A stretch of DNA of 64,000 nt from Microbispora sp. ZYX-F-249. Lineage in GTDB: Bacteria > Actinomycetota > Actinomycetes > Streptosporangiales > Streptosporangiaceae. Shown piece after piece: positions 39,407 to 48,809 of the stretch (the stretch's first letter is position 1; each line of letters begins with the position of its first letter). The translations under genes and the position numbers were made by a program. The stretch covers positions 1 through 64,000 of the forward strand of contig NZ_JBDJAW010000025.1 in assembly GCF_039649665.1 (NCBI RefSeq). Direction: 5' to 3'. Under the pieces are notes generated by a model. It searched no databases. It saw only the letters and a program-made list of their open reading frames with translations, and had not been told where the DNA came from.

Positions 39407-41029
39407 TTGAGAAGCAGAACCACAACGGGTGCCGGGGTGATCAGCGCCCTCGCCGGAGTCGTCGCCTTGGCCGGCGTGGCCACCGTCGGAACGGCGCAGG
39501 CCGCCACCGGGTGCGCCGTGACCTACACGACCAACGACTGGCCGGGTGGGTTCACCGCCGCCATCACCATCCAGAACCTGGGCAGCGCGATCGACGGCTG
39601 GACCCTCGGGTTCGCCTTCCCCGACAGCGGTCAGAAGGTGGGCACGGGCTGGTCGGCCACCTACAGTCAGAGCGGGCAGAACGTCACGGCCACGAACGTG
39701 GACTACAACGGCGCCATCGCGACCGGCGCGTCGTTGTCCATCGGGTTCAACGGCAGTTGGTCGGGGTCCAACCCCAAGCCCACCTCGTTCACCTTGAACG
39801 GCGTCACCTGCACCGGCTCTGCCACCACCTCATCACCGACCCCGTCGCCCACCCCGACACGCTCGCCCTCGCCCTCAGCCACCCCCACGCGCTCACCCTC
39901 CCCCTCCCCCTCACCCTCAGCCTCGCCCTCGACGACGCCGTCGAGTGGTGCGGTGTACGTGTCGCCGAACGGCAGGGACGGTGCCGCGGGGACCCAGTCC
40001 GACCCGACGACCCTCACTTCGGCGCTCACACGCGTCGCCCCCGGCGGGACGATCTACCTGCGCGGCGGGCGGTACGCCTTCACGCAGACGATCACCATCG
40101 CACCGGGCAACAACGGCACGTCGAACGCCCGCAAGACCCTGTCCGCCTACCCCGGTGAGACCCCGGTGCTGAACTTCTCGGCCCAGAGCGAGTCCTCGTC
40201 GAACCGCGGACTCGTCGTGAACGGCTCGTACTGGCATGTGTACGGCATCGTCGTCGAGCGGGCCGGCGACAACGGGATCTACGTCGGCGGCAGCAACAAC
40301 GTCATCGAACGCACGGTGACCCGGTTCAATCGCGACACCGGGCTGCAGCTCGGGCGGATCGCCTCCGACACCCCCCGCGACCAGTGGCCGTCCAACAACC
40401 TCATCCTCAGCGCGGAGTCGCACGACAACGCCGACTCCGACGGTGAGGACGCCGACGGCTTCGCCGCGAAGCTCACCACCGGCACCGGCAACGTCTTCCG
40501 CTACGCCGTGTCCCACAACAACATCGACGACGGCTGGGACCTCTACACCAAGACGGACACCGGAGCCATCGGGCCGGTGACCATCGAGGACTCCCTGTCC
40601 TACAACAACGGCACCCTCACCGACGGCAGCCAGGCCGGCGCCGGCGACCGCAACGGCTACAAGCTCGGCGGCGACAAGATCTCCGTCAGCCACATCGTCC
40701 GGCGAAGCATCGCCTACCGCAACGGCCACCACGGGTTCACCTACAACAGCAACCCGGGCACGATGTCGATCTCGAACAACGTCGGCATCGACAACGCCGA
40801 GCGCAACTTCTCCTTCGACGCCGGCACCTCGGTGTTCCGCAACAACACCTCGTGCCGCAGCGGCAGCGGGTCCAACGACAAGACCGTCGGTGACGTCGAC
40901 AGCTCCAACCAGTTCTGGTCCGGCTCGAACGGGTCCCGGTGCTCCTCCTACACCGGAGCCATGGGCTGGTCCTTCGCCTCGGACGGCCGCCTCGTCGTGA
41001 CCTTCGGCGGCAGGCCGGTCACGCCGTAA
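39407..41029 (+). CDS. Secreted CBM2-PL9 pectate lyase
   Basis: 540 residues. TTG 39407 with AAGGAG 7 bases upstream. Signal peptide to about residue 32 (GTAQA). Residues 33-137: CBM2 cellulose-binding module (CAVTYTTNDWPGGFTAAITI ... IGFNGSWSGSNPKPTSFTLN). Residues 140-180: Ser/Pro/Thr linker. The rest is a right-handed beta-helix lyase of the PL9/Pel9A type (YVSPNGRDGAAGTQSDPTTL; GGTIYLRGGRY; NNVIERTVTRFNRDTGLQLG; SHNNIDDGWDLYTK). It cleaves pectate by beta-elimination while bound to plant wall cellulose. Confidence 0.93.
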   Translation: MRSRTTTGAGVISALAGVVALAGVATVGTAQAATGCAVTYTTNDWPGGFTAAITIQNLGSAIDGWTLGFAFPDSGQKVGTGWSATYSQSGQNVTATNVDYNGAIATGASLSIGFNGSWSGSNPKPTSFTLNGVTCTGSATTSSPTPSPTPTRSPSPSATPTRSPSPSPSPSASPSTTPSSGAVYVSPNGRDGAAGTQSDPTTLTSALTRVAPGGTIYLRGGRYAFTQTITIAPGNNGTSNARKTLSAYPGETPVLNFSAQSESSSNRGLVVNGSYWHVYGIVVERAGDNGIYVGGSNNVIERTVTRFNRDTGLQLGRIASDTPRDQWPSNNLILSAESHDNADSDGEDADGFAAKLTTGTGNVFRYAVSHNNIDDGWDLYTKTDTGAIGPVTIEDSLSYNNGTLTDGSQAGAGDRNGYKLGGDKISVSHIVRRSIAYRNGHHGFTYNSNPGTMSISNNVGIDNAERNFSFDAGTSVFRNNTSCRSGSGSNDKTVGDVDSSNQFWSGSNGSRCSSYTGAMGWSFASDGRLVVTFGGRPVTP

Positions 41030-41171: not shown

Positions 41172-42002
41172 TCAGCGGCCGTTGACGGAGAAGTGCTGGT
41201 AGTCCTTGGCACCCGACCACGAGCCGCCCCAGCCCCAGCCGATCCGCTCGAAGGCCCGCACCACGCGGTCTCCGCTGTTGATCACGCCGGGCTTCTTGAG
41301 CGGCCGGTCCACGAACGCGTCCGCGTTGCGGTGGGCGTTGGAGCCGTTCGCGTAGACGTACGGGTTCTCCCGGGGGTTGAGGTCCACGGCGAGGCCGTAC
41401 GCGTGGTTGGACCAGCTGCCGGAGCCGGTGGCGTTGCGGCAGTTGAAGGCCGAGGTGTTGTCGGCGTCGATGGAGTCGTAGTCGCTGCCCTTGTAGACGT
41501 CGACGGGCTCCATCCGGCGGATGGGGTAGCGCATCTCGTAGAGCTTGCCGAAGACGGAGGCGATGTCCTCGGCCACCTTCTTGTTGACCACCAGCGTGCC
41601 GGTGTGCGCCTGGTCGTCGAAGCCCCAATAGGTCATGGTGATCTTGCGTAGCCCACTCGGCGGAACCGGGCAGCCCGGACGCCACGAGTGCCGGAGCTCG
41701 TCACGGGACACCGTCTCAATCTTCGCGGAGAAGGGCGGCGGCCCGCTCGGGCTCGGTGTGGGCCCGGTCTCGGGCGTGGGCGATACCGGCACGGCCGTGG
41801 GCGTGACGGACGCGGACGGAGCGGGCGCGGCCGAGGAGGCGGTGGGCATGGGCGAGTCCGACGCCGGGGCCGCCGGGGCGGGCGCGGACACCCGGGTCCG
41901 GGCGGTGGCGGACGCTCCCGCGTCGCCGACCCCGCCACAGCCGGTCATCCCGACGAGAGCCGCCATCACTACCACTGACCTGCGGTTCCACAAGGAGGTC
42001 AT
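41172..42002 (-). CDS. Lipoprotein M15-family peptidase (D-Ala-D-Ala carboxypeptidase-like)
   Basis: 276 residues. A lipobox ALVGMTGC places the lipidated Cys at 22. A Pro/Ser/Thr/Ala-rich spacer (residues 30-90) reaches through the wall to an M15 zinc peptidase with WSNHAYGLAVDLNP (His and Asp ligands) and DYQHFSVN (third histidine) close to the C-terminus. Members cleave peptidoglycan stem peptides. Divergent from an operon whose first gene resembles Lgt, the enzyme that lipidates such cysteines. Confidence 0.88.
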   Translation of the reverse strand: MTSLWNRRSVVVMAALVGMTGCGGVGDAGASATARTRVSAPAPAAPASDSPMPTASSAAPAPSASVTPTAVPVSPTPETGPTPSPSGPPPFSAKIETVSRDELRHSWRPGCPVPPSGLRKITMTYWGFDDQAHTGTLVVNKKVAEDIASVFGKLYEMRYPIRRMEPVDVYKGSDYDSIDADNTSAFNCRNATGSGSWSNHAYGLAVDLNPRENPYVYANGSNAHRNADAFVDRPLKKPGVINSGDRVVRAFERIGWGWGGSWSGAKDYQHFSVNGR

Positions 42003-42192: not shown

Positions 42193-43026
42193 GTGCTTGA
42201 GGAACTGCGTTTCGGCGGGGTGACCGTGCCGACCCACGCGTTTTTCGTGGGCCTCGGCGTGGTCCTCGCGAGCGTGGTGTTCGTCCTGGAAGCACGGCGC
42301 CGGGGAGCCCTGCGGGAGGAGTCCCTCGTCGCCGTCACCGGCGCGCTGGTCGGCGGGGCGATAGGCATGCGGCTGTCCGGGTGGGCCGAGCATCTCGACT
42401 TCGCGCTCAACCCCGGCCTCGTCGAGGCGTGGATGTTCGGCGCCCGGAGCATCCTCGGCGGCCTGACCGGCGCATATGTCGGAGTGCTGGTCGCGAAACG
42501 GCTGATCGGCTATCGGGAGCGCACCGGCGACCTGTTCGCGCCCGCGGTCGCGCTCGGCATGGCCGTCGGCCGCGTCGGCTGCTTCCTCACGGAGGCCCCG
42601 GGCCGTCCCACGAGCCTTCCTTGGGGCGTCCACGCACCCGCCACCGTGCCGGAATGCCCCGGTTGCGTGACCGGACAGGCGATGCACCCGTCCTACCTGT
42701 ACGAGACCGTCTTCCAGCTCGCCGCCTTCGGCGCGCTGCTGTGGGCCCGGAGCCGGGTTGACCGGCCGGGCGAGCTGTTCACCCTTTATCTGGGCGCGTA
42801 CGCCGCCTTCCGGTTCCTCGTCGAGTTCACCAGGGCGAACGAGACGGTCTGGCTCGACCTGACCCGCCCGCAGTGGTTCCTCGTCCCGGGCCTCGCGCTT
42901 CTCGCCGTCCGCCTCGGGATCGGATATCGCAAGGGCTTCTACGATCGGCTGCTCCCCCGCCGGGGCGAGCGGCGACCGCTGTCACTGGGCGCCCGGCTGT
43001 CGCCTGCGGGCGAGGAGGAGAGATGA
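42193..43026 (+). CDS. Lgt-like membrane protein lacking key Lgt residues
   Basis: 277 residues, about seven membrane segments, clearly related to prolipoprotein diacylglyceryl transferase: FFVGLGVVLASVVFVLE, GRVGCFLTEAPGRPTSLPWG (126-145), MHPSYLYE (164-171) and RFLVEFTR (207-214). However, the HGG motif with catalytic histidine is SILGG (86-90), and the signature GR-x-GN-x-x-NGE has become GRVGCFLTEA, losing the asparagines. It is therefore probably not a housekeeping Lgt but an enzyme acting on a related phospholipid or acceptor (inference). First of four genes joined by 4-base overlaps. Confidence 0.85.
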   Translation: MLEELRFGGVTVPTHAFFVGLGVVLASVVFVLEARRRGALREESLVAVTGALVGGAIGMRLSGWAEHLDFALNPGLVEAWMFGARSILGGLTGAYVGVLVAKRLIGYRERTGDLFAPAVALGMAVGRVGCFLTEAPGRPTSLPWGVHAPATVPECPGCVTGQAMHPSYLYETVFQLAAFGALLWARSRVDRPGELFTLYLGAYAAFRFLVEFTRANETVWLDLTRPQWFLVPGLALLAVRLGIGYRKGFYDRLLPRRGERRPLSLGARLSPAGEEER

Positions 43027-43757
43027 GCACACCCCCCGAGCCCTCCGAGCGGCCGGACGACCCGCAGCAGGGCGTTCCCGCCGGGACGCCGGACGATCAG
43101 CCGCACGGCGATCCCTCCGGGCTGCCGGACGACCCGCGGCACGGCGATCCGCGGCAGGGCGAACCGTCCGGGCGTCCGCCGGTACCGCCGCCCTCCGGCA
43201 CGCCGCACGGTCCGGCCGGCCCGCCACCGCCCCAGGGCCCGGCCGGCCCGCCACCGCCCCAGGGCCCGGCCGGCCCGCCGCCGTCGTACGGCCCGGCCGG
43301 CCCACCGCCTCAAGGTCCCGGCGGTCCGCCGCATCAGGGCCCGGGTGGCCTGCCGCATCAGGGCCCGGGCGTCCCGCCGCCGTGGGGTGCGCCGCCGCCC
43401 TATGGCCCCGCCGGGCCGTACGGACCGCCTGCGCCGCAGAGCTCGACCGCCGTGGTCGTCGCGATGACGATCGTGGGGATCGTGGCCTACGTGGTCATCA
43501 ATTTCGTGCTCTTCCTCGCGACCCTCGCGGCGGCGGACGGAGTCGCGAGCGACAACAAGAACATCGCGCTCATCGGCGGATCCGTGATCCTCGCCGCGAT
43601 CGCGTTCGGCGGCGGAACGCTGCTGCTGCTCCTGCGCAGGCCCTGGTCGCGGGGGCTCGGGATGGGCCTGATGATCGGCTGGGCGCTCATGACGATCTTC
43701 ACCGCCGGCTTCTGCACCGGCGTCAACCCCTCGCTGTACACGGACGGAGCCCTGTGA
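43023..43757 (+). CDS. Proline-rich membrane protein
   Basis: 244 residues. Residues 1-140 are Pro/Gly/Asp-rich with tandem GPAGPPPPQ and PDDP-type repeats; the remainder has three hydrophobic segments (VVVAMTIVGIVAYVVINFVL; IALIGGSVILAAIAFGGGTL; GMGLMIGWALMTIFTAGF). The repeat tail would be cytoplasmic and could bind partners. No enzymatic motif. ATG 43023 overlaps the Lgt-like stop (ATGA) and its own stop overlaps the radical SAM start (GTGA), so it is part of the same machinery. Confidence 0.75.
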   Translation: MSTPPEPSERPDDPQQGVPAGTPDDQPHGDPSGLPDDPRHGDPRQGEPSGRPPVPPPSGTPHGPAGPPPPQGPAGPPPPQGPAGPPPSYGPAGPPPQGPGGPPHQGPGGLPHQGPGVPPPWGAPPPYGPAGPYGPPAPQSSTAVVVAMTIVGIVAYVVINFVLFLATLAAADGVASDNKNIALIGGSVILAAIAFGGGTLLLLLRRPWSRGLGMGLMIGWALMTIFTAGFCTGVNPSLYTDGAL

Positions 43758-45322
43758 GCACGGGAATGCCCCTGCGGGGCGACCGCATCCTCCGTTACGT
43801 CAACGCGTTCTGCCCCCGCTGCCACGACGAGCGGCCGGACCGCCCGCTGGCGGAGGTGCCCCGCCTGTCCGGCTGGCTCGCGGCCCGCGACGGGCGGGTC
43901 TACCTGGAGCGCGGCTGCCGGAGCCACGGCATGGTCAGGACCCTCTACGACGAGGACCCGGAGATCCTCGCCTACCTGGAGGAGTGGACCGCCCCCACCA
44001 AGGCGCATCTGCCCGACGTCGCCGGGAACTTCGACCCGGTCCCGGAGGCGTACCTGCGGGGGCTGCCGGAGATGCAGACCCAGCACACCTGCATCCTCCT
44101 GGAGGACGTGGCGGAGGCGTGCAACCTTCGCTGCCCGACCTGCTTCACCGAGTCCTCGCCCGACCTGCGGGGGATCGTGCCGGTCCGGGAGGTGCTCGCC
44201 AACGTGGACCAGCGGCTGGCCCGCGAGAACGGCCGTCTCGACGTGCTCATGCTCAGCGGCGGCGAGCCGACCCTCCACCCCGACCTGCCCGAGCTGCTGG
44301 CCGAGCTGACGGCCCGGCCCGTCACCCGCATCCTGATCAACACCAACGGGCTCCTGGTGGCCCGCGACGACGCCCTGCTCGACCTGCTCACCGAGCACCG
44401 AGAGCGCGTCGAGATCTACCTGCAGTACGACGGCGTGTCGGCCGCGGCGTCCCGCCACCACCGGGGCGGCGACCTGCGGCGGCAGAAGGCGGAGGCGCTG
44501 CGGCGCCTGTCGGAGCGGGAGATCTTCACCACGCTCGTCATGACGGCCGCCCTCGGGGTGAACGACGGCGAGATCGGTGACGTGGTCCGCCTCGCCCTCG
44601 ACACGCCGTACGTCGGCGGCGTCTCCATCCAGCCGCAGTTCGGCTCGGGGCGGTCCGGCGTGATCGACCCGATGGACCGGCTCACCCACACCGGTGTGCT
44701 CAAGCGCCTCGGCCCGCAGACCGGCGGCCTGGTCAGCTGGCGCGACCTGACCGCCCTGCCCTGCTCGCATCCGCACTGCTGCTCGGTCGGCTACATGATC
44801 AAAGATGACGCCGACCGGTGGCGCTCGCTGACGGCGTTGATCGGGCACGACCGCCTCAAGGAGAACCTCGGGCTCGTCTCCAACCGCATCGCCGACTCGG
44901 AGATCCCCCGCCAGCTCCGCATGGCCGTGCAGGAGTCGCTGCTCGGCCTGCTGTCGGAGCAGTCGTCGCTGTCGCATCCCGAGATGGGCAAGGTCTGGCG
45001 CGACATCTGCGAGAACTGCGACCTCGGGCTGACCACCCTGCTGACGCTCGCGTCCTCGGCCCTCCCCGGGCGCAGGAAGCGGCTGCGCCGGCTGCTGGGC
45101 GAACGGATCGTGCGCATCACGATCAAGCCCTTCATGGACATGTCCACGATGCTGGAGGAGCGGCTGGTCCAGTGCTGTGTCCACGTCGGCACCCGCTCCG
45201 ACCAGGACCAGTGCGCGCCGTTCTGCGCGGTCCAGGCCTGGCCGGCGCTCGCGCGCCAGCGTCTGTCCGCCGTCGCCGCGGCCGACCCCGGCGTACGGCT
45301 CCCGCTGCTGGAGATCACATGA
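43754..45322 (+). CDS. Radical SAM enzyme resembling tetraether lipid synthase (Tes)
   Basis: 522 residues. Radical SAM cluster motif C123-x3-C127-x2-C130 in ACNLRCPTCF, with SGGEPTLHPD (168-177) binding AdoMet. An N-terminal metal site precedes it (FCPRCHDE, Cys20/Cys23; GCRSHGM, Cys55), and extra cysteine groups follow (LPCSHPHCCSVGYM; DICENCDLGL; VQCCVHVG ... QCAPFC) for auxiliary clusters. This layout resembles archaeal Tes and bacterial homologues that join lipid chains through C-C bonds. The substrate here is unproven; the Lgt-like partner and membrane proteins in the operon favour lipid chemistry. Confidence 0.82.
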   Translation: MSTGMPLRGDRILRYVNAFCPRCHDERPDRPLAEVPRLSGWLAARDGRVYLERGCRSHGMVRTLYDEDPEILAYLEEWTAPTKAHLPDVAGNFDPVPEAYLRGLPEMQTQHTCILLEDVAEACNLRCPTCFTESSPDLRGIVPVREVLANVDQRLARENGRLDVLMLSGGEPTLHPDLPELLAELTARPVTRILINTNGLLVARDDALLDLLTEHRERVEIYLQYDGVSAAASRHHRGGDLRRQKAEALRRLSEREIFTTLVMTAALGVNDGEIGDVVRLALDTPYVGGVSIQPQFGSGRSGVIDPMDRLTHTGVLKRLGPQTGGLVSWRDLTALPCSHPHCCSVGYMIKDDADRWRSLTALIGHDRLKENLGLVSNRIADSEIPRQLRMAVQESLLGLLSEQSSLSHPEMGKVWRDICENCDLGLTTLLTLASSALPGRRKRLRRLLGERIVRITIKPFMDMSTMLEERLVQCCVHVGTRSDQDQCAPFCAVQAWPALARQRLSAVAAADPGVRLPLLEIT

Positions 45323-45663
45323 GCCCCCCGCACGGGGAGCCCGGCGACGGGGAGACGGGCCCGACGGGGGTCGTGTACGAGCAGGCTCTGGCGGCGCAGG
45401 CGTCCGGGGGCGGGCAGGCCAACCCGTACGATCCGCTGAAGCTGTGCGTCTACGCGACTGTGGCCCTGCTGGCCTGGCTGTTCGGAGCCTGGGCCGTGCT
45501 CGGCTTCGCGGCCCTGGGGTTCGCGGGTTACTGGCGGGCCCGCCGCGCCGGGCTCACCAGGAGCAAGTGCTACCTCAGGGACACCCGGCTCGTCCTCGCC
45601 TACCTGGGACTGATCGCCCTGGTCGCCGCGGCGGCCCTCGTGCTCCCGCACGTGTCCCGCTAG
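45319..45663 (+). CDS. Small membrane protein at the end of the radical SAM operon
   Basis: 114 residues with two hydrophobic segments (LCVYATVALLAWLFGAWAVL extending to about residue 72; LVLAYLGLIALVAAAALVLP) joined by a basic loop (RARRAGLTRSKCYLRDTR). ATG 45319 overlaps the radical SAM stop. No family recognised; probably a membrane adaptor for the enzyme complex. Convergent with the VOC gene, 12 bases away. Confidence 0.75.
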   Translation: MSPPHGEPGDGETGPTGVVYEQALAAQASGGGQANPYDPLKLCVYATVALLAWLFGAWAVLGFAALGFAGYWRARRAGLTRSKCYLRDTRLVLAYLGLIALVAAAALVLPHVSR

Positions 45664-46086: not shown

Positions 46087-46211
46087 TCCGCGATCGTGTC
46101 ACACGATCAAGGGGAGCCCGGCAAGGCCTGGTCCTCGCGAGACCCGCTCCGTCACGGAATTTGTCGGTGGGCTTCGCCATGATCTGCGTACCTACTCACC
46201 GAGGGAGCATC

Positions 46212-47180
46212 ATGGCTGTCGCCCGGGAAGCGGACTGGTCCGGCATCGGCTGGGACGCCTGGAAGAGCCTGCGGGTGATCCGCGCCCGGCTCGACGCGGG
46301 TGCCGATCCCAATTCGAGCGGCCCCTACTATGAGCCGCCCTTGCACAGAGCCGCCGAATGCGGCTCTCCCGAAGTGGTGAGGGAGCTCGCCGCCCGCGTC
46401 GACGATGTGGACGCCGAGTACGAGGGCCGTACGGCGCTGTGGACGGCCGTCTTCGCCAACCGCCGGGACAACGCCCGGATCCTGGCCGAGGCCGGTGCCG
46501 ATCCGTGGCGGCCGATGATGAACGGCTGGTCGCCCGGACGGCTGAGCCTGGCCACGCCGACCCCCGCCCTGTTCGGTGATCCCGTGGGCCGGCCCGGGCT
46601 GTCCGAGGCCGAACTGGAGGCGGTGGCGGAGGCGAGGCGTCTCATCGATGCGTTGGGCGACTTCTACTACGACGGGGTGGCCGTGGCCTGCGTGGCCGGC
46701 GTCACCGCGGCCGAGGCGGCACGCCGTCTGGAAGCCGCCTCTGTCGACGCCGCCGAAGTCGACGCGCTTCTCGAGGACGACATCTTCGAGGACTTCGACG
46801 AGAACCTCGCCATCATCGGGGTCACGGACGTGCCCGGCGGCTGCGTCGTCAGCCAGCCGTGGGGATACATGCCGTACGCGACCGGTGTCACGGAGCGCCT
46901 GTCGGCGGGGACGGTCTGCTATGCGATGTACGCCAATCCCAAAAGTGGCAACCAGGGGAGTGTGACCCGGGACGGCGCAATCGTGGAATGGGACACCCAT
47001 CCCGGTGGCGGCGACCCCTCGTCCGACGCCTCGGCCGAGGAGATCCTCCGCAGCTACCTGTTCCATGGACGAGCGTTGGCGTACTGCTGCGCGGGCGCGG
47101 GCCTGCGGCTGGACGATGCCGCTGCCATCGAATCGCCCAGCGCGTGGGTGAGACTCCCCGAACGGGACCACTGGCGCTGA
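46212..47180 (+). CDS. Ankyrin-repeat protein with DUF6461-like C-terminus
   Basis: 322 residues. Residues 15-110 contain ankyrin repeats (IRARLDAGADPNSSGPYYEP PLHRAAECGSPEVVRELA; GRTALWTAVFANRRDNARIL). From about 150 the protein follows the pattern of actinobacterial DUF6461 proteins (GVAVACVAGVTAAEAARRLE ... DFDENLAIIGVTDVPGG ... VCYAMYANPKSGNQ). GAGGGAGC precedes ATG 46212. Ankyrin proteins bind other proteins; no enzymatic role is visible. Confidence 0.75.
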   Translation: MAVAREADWSGIGWDAWKSLRVIRARLDAGADPNSSGPYYEPPLHRAAECGSPEVVRELAARVDDVDAEYEGRTALWTAVFANRRDNARILAEAGADPWRPMMNGWSPGRLSLATPTPALFGDPVGRPGLSEAELEAVAEARRLIDALGDFYYDGVAVACVAGVTAAEAARRLEAASVDAAEVDALLEDDIFEDFDENLAIIGVTDVPGGCVVSQPWGYMPYATGVTERLSAGTVCYAMYANPKSGNQGSVTRDGAIVEWDTHPGGGDPSSDASAEEILRSYLFHGRALAYCCAGAGLRLDDAAAIESPSAWVRLPERDHWR

Positions 47181-47566
47181 CCGCCCACCCCGCGACGAGG
47201 CAGGCGCACGACCGTGCGAAGGACCGGTCTCGTGGCGCCTCGCCGGGGCAACGGACGGCGAGGGTGGTGGAGCCGCTGAACGACGGTGTTTGACGGAGCT
47301 TTCGGGGAAAGCTCGCGCAGGTGTTCGATGACGCGCTACAGTCATGCCCATCGGATCGAACACGGGTTCGGTCGAGTCCTGCCAGGTAAGGGGTGTGTGA
47401 TGACTGTGCCCACGGTGTCCGCCGCCCCGGTTCCGGCAGCCGCCGTTCCCGTGACCGACGATCCGGTCGTGCCCTCCCCGGCTCCGCCCGTTGTCGTCCC
47501 GGTCGTCCCGGCCCAGGCTCCGCCCGCCGCCGCGCGGTGCGTGCCGCGGCCGCGCCGGGCGACACG

Positions 47567-47607
47567 CCGTAGCACTCTCTACGGAAATCTACGACGGCCG
47601 CTATATC
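47567..47607 (+). promoter_or_regulatory. Palindrome and TATATC element before the AAA ATPase
   Basis: CCGTAG-N6-CTACGG (47567-47584) is followed by an AATCTACG word that recurs in the hairpin downstream of the gene, and by TATATC (47602-47607), a plausible -10 located 20 bases before GTG 47628. GC content drops sharply here, unlike coding sequence. Confidence 0.45.
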
Positions 47608-47627
47608 CCGTCATAAAGTCCGAGAGC

Positions 47628-48809
47628 GTGGACCCCGTGCGCAATCCCTACGCCCCCGGCGCCGGCCAGCGCCCCCCGGAACTCGCCGGACGCGACCGCG
47701 AACTGCAGCAGTTCGAGATCGTGCTGGAGCGGGTGGCCCGGGGCCGCCCCGAGCGGAGCATGGTCCTCACCGGCCTGCGCGGCGTGGGCAAGACCGTCCT
47801 GCTCAACACGTTCAAGTCCATGGCCATGCAGCGGCTGTGGGGCACCGGCAAGATCGAGGCCAGGCCCGACCAGTCGATCCGCCGCCCGGTGGCGGCCGCG
47901 CTGCACATGGCCATCAGGGAGCTCGCCCCCCGCCACCGCGCCCCGGAGCGCATCGAGGAGTTCCTCGGCGTGCTCAAGGCGTTCGCGATGCGCGATCCCG
48001 CCGCGGCGAAGGGCACCTCGCACTGGTCGCCCGGCATCGACGTGCCCGCCGCGCGTGGCCGGGCCGACTCGGGTGACCTGGAGATCGACCTGACCGAGCT
48101 GTTCGTCGACGCCGCCGGCGTCGCGACGGACCTCGGCGTCGGCATCGCGCTGTTCATCGACGAGATGCAGGACGTGCAGGCGCCGGACGTCTCGGCCCTG
48201 TGCGCGGCCTGCCACGAGCTGTCGCAGAACGGCGGCCCGCTGATCGTCGTCGGCGCCGGCCTGCCCCACCTGCCGAGCGTGCTGTCGGCGAGCAAGAGCT
48301 ACTCCGAACGGCTGTTCCGGTACGCGCGCATCGACCGGCTGGACCGCGACGCCGCCGACCTGGCGCTCATCGCCCCTGCCGCCCGTGAGGACGTCGAGTT
48401 CACGCCCGACGCGCTCGACGCGTTGTACGAGGCGGCCGACGGCTACCCCTACTTCGTCCAGGCGTACGGGAAGGTCGCCTGGGATCTCGCTCCGCGCAGC
48501 CCGATCACGGCCGAGGACATCAAGGTGTCCGCCCCGGAGGCCGAGGAGGAGCTGGCGGTGGGCTTCTTCGGCAGCCGCTACGAGCGGGCCACGCCCGCCG
48601 AGCGGGACTACATGCACGCCATGGCCCAGCTCGGCGACGACCCGGTGCCGACCGCCGAGGTGGCCGAGACGCTGGGCCGCAAGCCGTCGAGTCTGTCACC
48701 GGCCCGCGACAGCCTGATCAAGAAGGGCCTGATCTACAGCGCGGAGCGCGGCGTGATCGGGTTCACCGTTCCGCATTTCGGGAGGTTCCTCCGTGCGCAG
48801 CCGCTCTGA
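47628..48809 (+). CDS. AAA ATPase of the ORC/CDC6-like type
   Basis: 393 residues from GTG 47628 (VDPVRNPYAPGAGQRPPELA). Walker A LTGLRGVGKTVLL, Walker B LFIDEMQDV with sensor-like VVGAGLPHLP, arginine-containing RLFRYARIDRL, and a C-terminal winged-helix region (VPTAEVAETLGRKPSSLSPA ... LIKKGLIYSAERGVIGFTVP). An in-frame ATG at 47400 would add a Pro/Val-rich stretch, but the AT-rich break at 47567-47620 and family length favour the later start. Related proteins are widespread in actinobacteria with no assigned role; an NTP-driven DNA-binding switch is plausible. Confidence 0.8.
   Translation: MDPVRNPYAPGAGQRPPELAGRDRELQQFEIVLERVARGRPERSMVLTGLRGVGKTVLLNTFKSMAMQRLWGTGKIEARPDQSIRRPVAAALHMAIRELAPRHRAPERIEEFLGVLKAFAMRDPAAAKGTSHWSPGIDVPAARGRADSGDLEIDLTELFVDAAGVATDLGVGIALFIDEMQDVQAPDVSALCAACHELSQNGGPLIVVGAGLPHLPSVLSASKSYSERLFRYARIDRLDRDAADLALIAPAAREDVEFTPDALDALYEAADGYPYFVQAYGKVAWDLAPRSPITAEDIKVSAPEAEEELAVGFFGSRYERATPAERDYMHAMAQLGDDPVPTAEVAETLGRKPSSLSPARDSLIKKGLIYSAERGVIGFTVPHFGRFLRAQPL

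Follow-up and report, generated by a model that had tools for sequence, protein, structure and literature searches.

What is the function of an operon in which a relative of the prolipoprotein diacylglyceryl transferase Lgt is encoded together with a radical S-adenosylmethionine (SAM) protein resembling Tes, the tetraether lipid synthase? This question is raised by a stretch of 64,000 nucleotides from Microbispora sp. ZYX-F-249 (positions 1 to 64,000 of NZ_JBDJAW010000025.1, contig 25 of an 8.8 Mb genome; the whole stretch is denoted here as the window), where four genes, all on the forward (+) strand, occupy positions 42193 to 45663. The initial annotation, made from the letters alone, had described them as an operon coupled by four-base overlaps, and this was borne out, every one of the three junctions being an ATGA or GTGA overlap of 4 bases. 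It had also suggested that the operon makes a new membrane lipid or a lipid-linked molecule. Here, a lipid role is retained as the best reading, since both families have characterized members that act on lipids, and the two genes are inherited together. Specifically, the operon may be considered, in a broad sense, a lipid-modifying module whose core is formed by the Lgt-like protein (LgtL) and the radical SAM protein, a proposal that we judge to have an even chance of being correct. Any specific structure for its product is much less likely than this broad reading.

The first gene, lgtL (42193-43026), has a GTG start and encodes an Lgt-family membrane protein of 277 residues. It is followed by a gene (43023-43757) for a Pro-rich membrane protein, with 39% Pro within its first 140 residues and a hydrophobic C-terminal half that ends in GLGxGLMIGWA...GFCTGxNP. 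The third gene (43754-45322), also with a GTG start, encodes the radical SAM protein, a 522-residue member of the Tes/TrsS superfamily with a PF04055 domain (72 bits) and an N-terminal zinc ribbon (PF23545, 37 bits), while the fourth (45319-45663) encodes a small membrane protein of 114 residues, whose alignment shows a conserved DPLxLC ... SxCxLRDTRLVLxYL sequence. The Pro-rich and the small membrane protein are regarded as accessory, and neither gave a Pfam match over the cut-off, an NCBIfam match at E <= 1 or a PHROG match at E <= 0.01. A sigma-70-like promoter was looked for between positions 41900 and 45800, and none was found.

The evidence that the two enzymes belong together came from a set of 90 loci, made of the best 80 of 271 public-genome relatives (among these 80, the closest relatives of the radical SAM protein are from Microbispora, with 94-98% identity over the protein) and ten further loci. 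Both lgtL and the radical SAM gene could be located in 88 of the 90, on the same strand in all 88 and with their centers no more than 2.2 kb apart. The order lgtL, Pro-rich gene and radical SAM gene, with or without the small membrane protein gene at the end, was found in 60 of these 88 loci. In 21, mostly from Nonomuraea, the Pro-rich gene precedes lgtL, the radical SAM gene and the small membrane protein gene, and in the remaining seven lgtL is directly followed by the radical SAM gene and the small membrane protein gene; two of these seven are cut by contig ends and five are the most divergent loci of the set. In these five the Pro-rich gene is likely missing, as its profile yielded weak matches in frames overlapping module genes in three of them and none in two. 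The small membrane protein was not found in 31 of the 88 loci, profile search included. Because the accessory genes vary between loci in this manner, lgtL and the radical SAM gene are taken as the core of the module. The 4-base overlap seen in the window recurs, although the counts are approximate, as the gene starts of the relatives were chosen by script: among 28 loci in which the radical SAM gene comes straight after lgtL, 24 show it, and among 60 in which the radical SAM gene comes after the Pro-rich gene, 49 do. Many of the aligned Pro-rich rows carry a padded N-terminus running into lgtL. At L160, L161, L085, L088, L090 and L104, lgtL and the radical SAM gene are separated by two tandem matches to the Pro-rich gene. 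The mycobacterial loci with this arrangement include plasmids of M. avium and M. branderi.

The four genes differ in the selection acting on them. When the window was compared with seven relatives, the ratio of nonsynonymous to synonymous substitution rates (dN/dS) lay at 0.10-0.19 in lgtL, 0.09-0.15 in the radical SAM gene, 0.26-0.54 in the gene of the Pro-rich protein and 0.17-0.73 in that of the small membrane protein. The two enzymes are the constrained part of the module, under strong purifying selection, and the radical SAM protein is its most conserved part, with 78-96% identity to the window protein in 46 other rows. One aligned row (OUR_L025) is a frame-broken copy with an out-of-frame tail. 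Three further copies (L022, L023 and L024) present an in-frame TGA after the last conserved block; a reading as selenocysteine was rejected, and the codon is taken as an ordinary stop.

Surveys of whole genomes gave the same picture. Among 121 genomes of the order of the window, a radical SAM orthologue (identity of 75% or more, with a drop to about 30% for the next full-length relatives) was found in 22, and LgtL in the identical 22. In 249 genomes of a second order, that of genome G158, both genes were present in the same nine. The LgtL query also yielded eight weaker matches in this sample (34-38% identity), all of one family; the idea that these were orphan LgtLs was rejected, as the three that were checked all have the Tyr26 and Asn146 of an ordinary Lgt (E. 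coli numbering). Among 248 genomes of the genus of G158, which is named here Mycobacterium on the basis of close identity to named relatives, 67 contain LgtL, and 64 of these 67 also contain the radical SAM gene, which was never found without LgtL; this sample shares genomes with that of the second order, and the two are not independent. Of the three exceptions with LgtL only, the contig ends no more than 0.7 kb past lgtL in G756 (a 70%-complete genome) and G872, and lgtL is broken in G828. The single weak match to the LgtL query in the genus sample (G891) was discarded as an ordinary Lgt, with Tyr26 and Asn146. Single genomes (G828, G813 and G067) gave matches to lgtL or the radical SAM gene that are split in two or interrupted by a stop, which suggests that the module is dispensable in places. 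Finally, 23 of 396 genomes of the phylum matched the TrsS profile at E <= 1e-25. Ten of them have a radical SAM relative with about 60% identity or more, adjoined by LgtL in all ten, and in the other 13 no LgtL was seen in the stretches fetched, which were short for G290, G435 and G488. Regarding the Lgt search in this phylum sample, one query (lgt_L001) was a wrong-frame open reading frame (ORF) and the other Lgt query was correct. In summary of these counts, lgtL and the radical SAM gene are inherited together, adjacent and co-oriented.

M. avium and M. branderi also carry the module on plasmids, and a region that may correspond to it has been reported in Pseudarthrobacter, where, of four near-identical cells, one lacks and three contain a stretch of about 3,500 bases with genes for a radical SAM protein and a prolipoprotein diacylglyceryl transferase (PMC12010503). 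Its sameness with the module is suggested by size (the module spans 3,471 bases) and by gene content; the section concerned names the region in passing, with no function proposed. Since the region is present in three of these cells and missing in one, the pair appears to be gained or lost as a unit.

The next question is whether LgtL is still an Lgt. Its family assignment is clear, with 110.1 bits for PF01790 (cut-off 24.9), and the only PDB entry matched by its predicted fold at E <= 0.001 was E. coli Lgt (5azb); the equivalog model TIGR00544 gave 81.7 bits, under its cut-off of 118.9. The genome encodes two further, ordinary Lgts, which contain the usual active-site residues except for a Trp at position 103. 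The initial annotation had emphasized that the protein of the operon lacks both the catalytic His and the signature Asn of Lgt. Both are indeed replaced, by Leu at 103 and by Cys at 146, respectively. However, the loss of His103 is uninformative because the two ordinary Lgts of the same genome have Trp there, as actinobacterial Lgts do (PMC13251419), and it was rejected as a sign of new function. The differences that set LgtL apart are others: Tyr26 is replaced by His and Asn146 by Cys in all 90 LgtL rows, whereas seven out of seven ordinary Lgts have Tyr and Asn at these positions; the signature motif has Thr in place of Asn149 and a one-residue deletion; and LgtL and Lgt form separate groups in the tree, with a support of 97/98. 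In contrast, the features shared with E. coli Lgt (PDB 5AZB/5AZC) include, besides family and predicted fold, Arg143, Glu151 and Arg239, kept in 90 of 90 rows, and Gly154, Glu202, Tyr235, Glu243 and Arg246, kept in 16 of 16. In the numbering of the window protein, the residues invariant across the 90 rows are His15 (codon at 42235-42237), which takes the place of Tyr26, Arg127 and Cys130, equivalent to Arg143 and Asn146 and delimiting a segment of the signature motif (42571-42582), Glu134, and Arg207 (codon at 42811-42813), equivalent to Arg239.

The crystal structure of the E. coli enzyme gives meaning to these positions: phosphatidylglycerol (PG) is bound by Glu151 at the first of its sites, the second is lined by Arg143, and Tyr26 touches the glycerol backbone (PMC4728403). 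As far as its sequence can tell, LgtL thus presents a fixed, remodeled site around the residues that bind PG in E. coli Lgt. It does not look like a decaying protein, because the replacements are fixed as a specific His and a specific Cys, and this is so in another phylum too. That LgtL could be a catalytically dead remnant, sensing or flipping PG, might be argued from the disappearance of two residues required in E. coli Lgt, but the same fixation in 90 of 90 rows and beyond the phylum, together with the low dN/dS of lgtL, makes this alternative highly improbable.

The occurrence outside Actinomycetota refers to plasmid pPP1 of Persicobacter psychrovividus (Bacteroidota), a single record on which all the second-phylum evidence depends. 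In it (L166:5265-7392), the frame of an LgtL overlaps by 11 bases the start of a radical SAM gene of the Tes/TrsS family. This LgtL is 36% identical (103 bits) to that of the window, compared with 26% (32 bits) to one of the ordinary Lgts of the window genome, and contains His26 and Cys146 as in LgtL, while position 151 aligns as Phe and position 246 is Lys. Its grouping with LgtL has a support of 98/97, the branch being long and flagged as unsure by the tool. The accompanying radical SAM protein keeps the N-terminal auxiliary motif and has lost the C-terminal Cys 342, 474 and 491, the reverse of the actinobacterial family, where the N-terminal cluster is lost and the C-terminal one kept.

Could LgtL nevertheless work on lipoproteins? 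One possibility is that it acts as a prolipoprotein diacylglyceryl transferase specialized in a few lipoproteins, with the radical SAM enzyme modifying these or their lipid anchors. Most of the Lgt site is kept, as described above, and candidate genes are found close by: the divergent gene next to the operon in the window (41172-42002, minus strand) encodes a protein with a Peptidase_M15_4 domain and, as identified by eye, a lipobox-like cysteine, and the M. branderi plasmid has two DUF3558 genes directly upstream. Moreover, the Lgt of L. interrogans has Cys at 146 and restores the cell morphology, and viability only poorly (PMC13251419); since this protein is partly functional, Cys146 alone does not exclude lipoprotein work. 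However, the adjoining lipoprotein gene, to which the initial annotation had drawn attention, is a neighbor outside the module: a relative of this M15 lipoprotein was found at 20 of 80 loci (19 by clustering), with at least 2 kb upstream of lgtL available in 73 of the 80, and its membership was therefore rejected. A listing of 19 neighbor families, each present in at least three genera, contained none that clearly extends over both orders apart from the module genes themselves, the apparent exceptions being two short ORFs within the module span and a 505-aa family whose sole member outside Streptosporangiaceae is on the short contig L086. The two replaced residues also speak against this explanation, as Tyr26 and Asn146 are among the six required for E. 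coli Lgt function, and MSMEG_5408, a second Lgt homologue of M. smegmatis that bears the LgtL signature (Y26H and N146C), is presumed to have low Lgt activity (PMC13251419). The word "radical" is absent from the main text of that report. On balance, we regard a specialized lipoprotein enzyme as unlikely.

The identity of the second enzyme was approached by comparison with Tes, also known as GDGT-MAS (MJ0619; PDB 7TOL, 7TOM), which holds four metal sites and a tunnel that binds lipid (PMC9433317). Tes is the closest PDB entry by sequence (7tol, E 9.2e-29) and by predicted fold (7tom, E 1.7e-19, TM 0.58), although the model is weak, with a mean pLDDT of 59. The initial annotation had noted a Tes-like cysteine layout, and three of its elements were recovered in an alignment of 33 family rows and 25 distant rows (the distant set includes the unrelated L163_3, which was dropped from the tree). 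The rubredoxin-type site, CX2C...CX2H in Tes (PMC9433317), corresponds to C20xxC23 ... C55xxH58 (43811-43927) and is complete in 33 of 33 rows, as is the CX3CX2C motif of the radical SAM cluster, C123NLRC127PTC130 (44120-44143). The C-terminal auxiliary site (44777-45226) contains C342, C474, C475 and C491, kept in 32, 32, 32 and 33 of the 33 rows, which align with the C-terminal Cys of Tes, a comparison made by aligned Cys and not by established ligand identity, and C487, which is family-specific (32 of 33 family rows versus 0 of 25 distant rows). What did not hold was the fourth element. In the region of the N-terminal auxiliary [4Fe-4S] cluster (44003-44089; C73, C77 and C80 of the CX3CX2C motif in Tes), no Cys is found in any of the 33 family rows; H111 is kept inside this region and C113 lies just after it. 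In contrast, 21 of the 25 distant relatives have three or more Cys there.

These differences bear on the possibility that the protein is a true Tes-type synthase of tetraether or membrane-spanning lipids. The PDB matches and the three shared sites would favor it, but Tes Met439 and Tyr459, conserved in 1,000 archaeal homologues, correspond to Lys458 in 32 of 33 rows and to Val478 in 31 of 33, a mapping that uses an inferred 20-residue offset of the PDB chain. The family also has its own H339 and H341 in addition to C487, and is partnered with LgtL. In a tree of 58 rows it constitutes one side of a 100/100 branch with a long stem, and Tes, represented by one partial row, falls with the remaining rows, with a warning from the tool about long branches meeting there. 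The comparison with the Tes profile (NF045702), which the initial annotation had proposed as a check, gave 145 bits, far under the cut-off of 450, and true Tes activity finds no support. In addition, DUF2229, which we take to be the marker of the Ger/PlsA ether-lipid enzyme, was not matched anywhere in the genome (the search for ether routes covered this marker only), and ether lipids of the Ger/PlsA type were rejected on this basis. A true Tes is therefore very hard to sustain. Rather, the aligned residues indicate that the radical SAM protein is a remodeled member of the Tes/TrsS superfamily, with three of the four Tes metal sites kept and a clade of its own. The coupling of lipid chains by radical SAM enzymes is documented outside Tes in Mss, the bacterial membrane-spanning lipid synthase, and Gms, the GMGT synthase (PMC11868695, PMC11186832); Gms differs from the protein of the module in having a SPASM domain.

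The best-scoring NCBIfam model was that of the (seleno)protein TrsS (NF045646), with 188.6 bits, under a cut-off of 490. TrsS shares with the family the QHxC sequence before the radical SAM cluster and Cys at positions 337 and 342, and differs from it in the N-terminal auxiliary cluster, which the family lacks. We know of no reaction assigned to TrsS. The protein of the module could then act on a protein or on a small molecule, as TrsS may, LgtL serving only to anchor or organize the complex. That the TrsS model outscores that of Tes (188.6 versus 145 bits), that no other part of the module is as conserved as the radical SAM protein, and that the conserved Cys of the partner membrane proteins could be its targets would all be in agreement with this idea. 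Against it, the TrsS-like relatives keep a different company: in four of four annotated plasmid records, out of seven distant plasmid matches, their gene is directly upstream of a methyltransferase gene, with no LgtL, while the module has no methyltransferase next door. Furthermore, no conserved gene resembling a precursor peptide was seen, and LgtL is under strong selection and keeps its PG-contact residues. A non-lipid substrate is thus considered fairly improbable. As to the plasmid relatives themselves, that of M. vanbaalenii (L163:3296-8336) has the methyltransferase just downstream of the TrsS-like gene, with genes for CcdA, a disulfide oxidoreductase and another radical SAM protein in the vicinity, and three haloarchaeal plasmids show the same pair of TrsS-like radical SAM and methyltransferase genes.

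The lipid-modifying reading can be formulated as a sequence of steps. The radical SAM enzyme, in the cytoplasm, would take a hydrogen atom from an unactivated lipid-tail carbon, and its C-terminal cluster would be used to join or functionalize that tail. LgtL would then act at the outer leaflet, where it would bind PG and either present it or transfer its diacylglyceryl group, the acceptor not being a lipobox cysteine, while the two small membrane proteins would probably be assembly or docking subunits. The product might be a minor, dispensable envelope lipid or lipid conjugate. The most explicit version, an undescribed lipid-building machine present in two phyla, in which the radical SAM enzyme activates a lipid-tail C-H and an Lgt rebuilt with His and Cys moves the PG diacylglyceryl group to another lipid, must be seen as rather doubtful. 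If true, an envelope lipid that is cross-linked or of the glyceryl-ether type would be made by aerobic actinobacteria common in soil and by non-tuberculous mycobacteria.

Several points weigh against the lipid-modifying proposal. The radical SAM family stands no further from TrsS than from Tes, and it departs from the latter in the N-terminal cluster and at Met439 and Tyr459. Its structural model is too poor to judge whether there is a lipid tunnel. A shared role for the C-terminal cluster is doubtful because the pPP1 protein has lost three of the C-terminal Cys. On the side of LgtL, the N146A change also lowers the amount of E. coli Lgt (PMC13251419), so the requirement for Asn146 may concern stability, the mutated protein being less abundant. 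The order of the steps is a guess, because the LgtL site should face outwards and the radical SAM protein is cytosolic. Lastly, the substrate and the product of the module are proposed from sequence.

With respect to previous knowledge, the parts belong to known superfamilies; in the sources consulted, the gene pair appears once, in passing (PMC12010503), and the residue changes of LgtL once (PMC13251419). No proposal of a joint function for Lgt and a radical SAM protein was found in the open-license literature searched. Tes homologues occur in bacteria not known for biphytanyl chains, and the work on Tes was offered as a roadmap for their reactions (PMC9433317). The module would provide a tractable handle on such homologues, as the partner gene hints at PG as the lipid donor and the module is present in cultured genera and in about a quarter of the Mycobacterium sample (64 of 248). 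If LgtL belongs to another pathway, the inactive look of a "second Lgt" with Y26H and N146C would be explained, and the family-level label of prolipoprotein transferase, carried by two plasmid records, would mislead.

Some minor observations concern the radical SAM protein and the surroundings of the module. The protein encoded at L154 (G282) contains a long in-frame insertion, with repeated Gly/Arg-rich units after a CSHPHCCSVGY motif. A role in anti-phage defense was rejected: the sole PADLOC match was viperin-like and covered the radical SAM core. When viral contigs were scanned for the radical SAM protein, none of the 36 candidate stretches could be confirmed, both patterns of the scan being suited to the actinobacterial family only. 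In the window, the neighborhood of the operon also includes a glyoxalase-like gene, and at 39407-41029 a secreted-looking protein is encoded, with an N-terminal CBM_2 cellulose-binding domain and a pectate-lyase-like beta-helix, the helix match being just under the Pfam cut-off. Downstream of the module there are genes for an ankyrin-repeat protein (46161-47180) and an AAA_16 ATPase (47286-48809). Relatives of this ATPase were found near the module in 39 of 80 loci, from eight genera taken as Streptosporangiaceae, a proximity that is read as plain chromosomal synteny.

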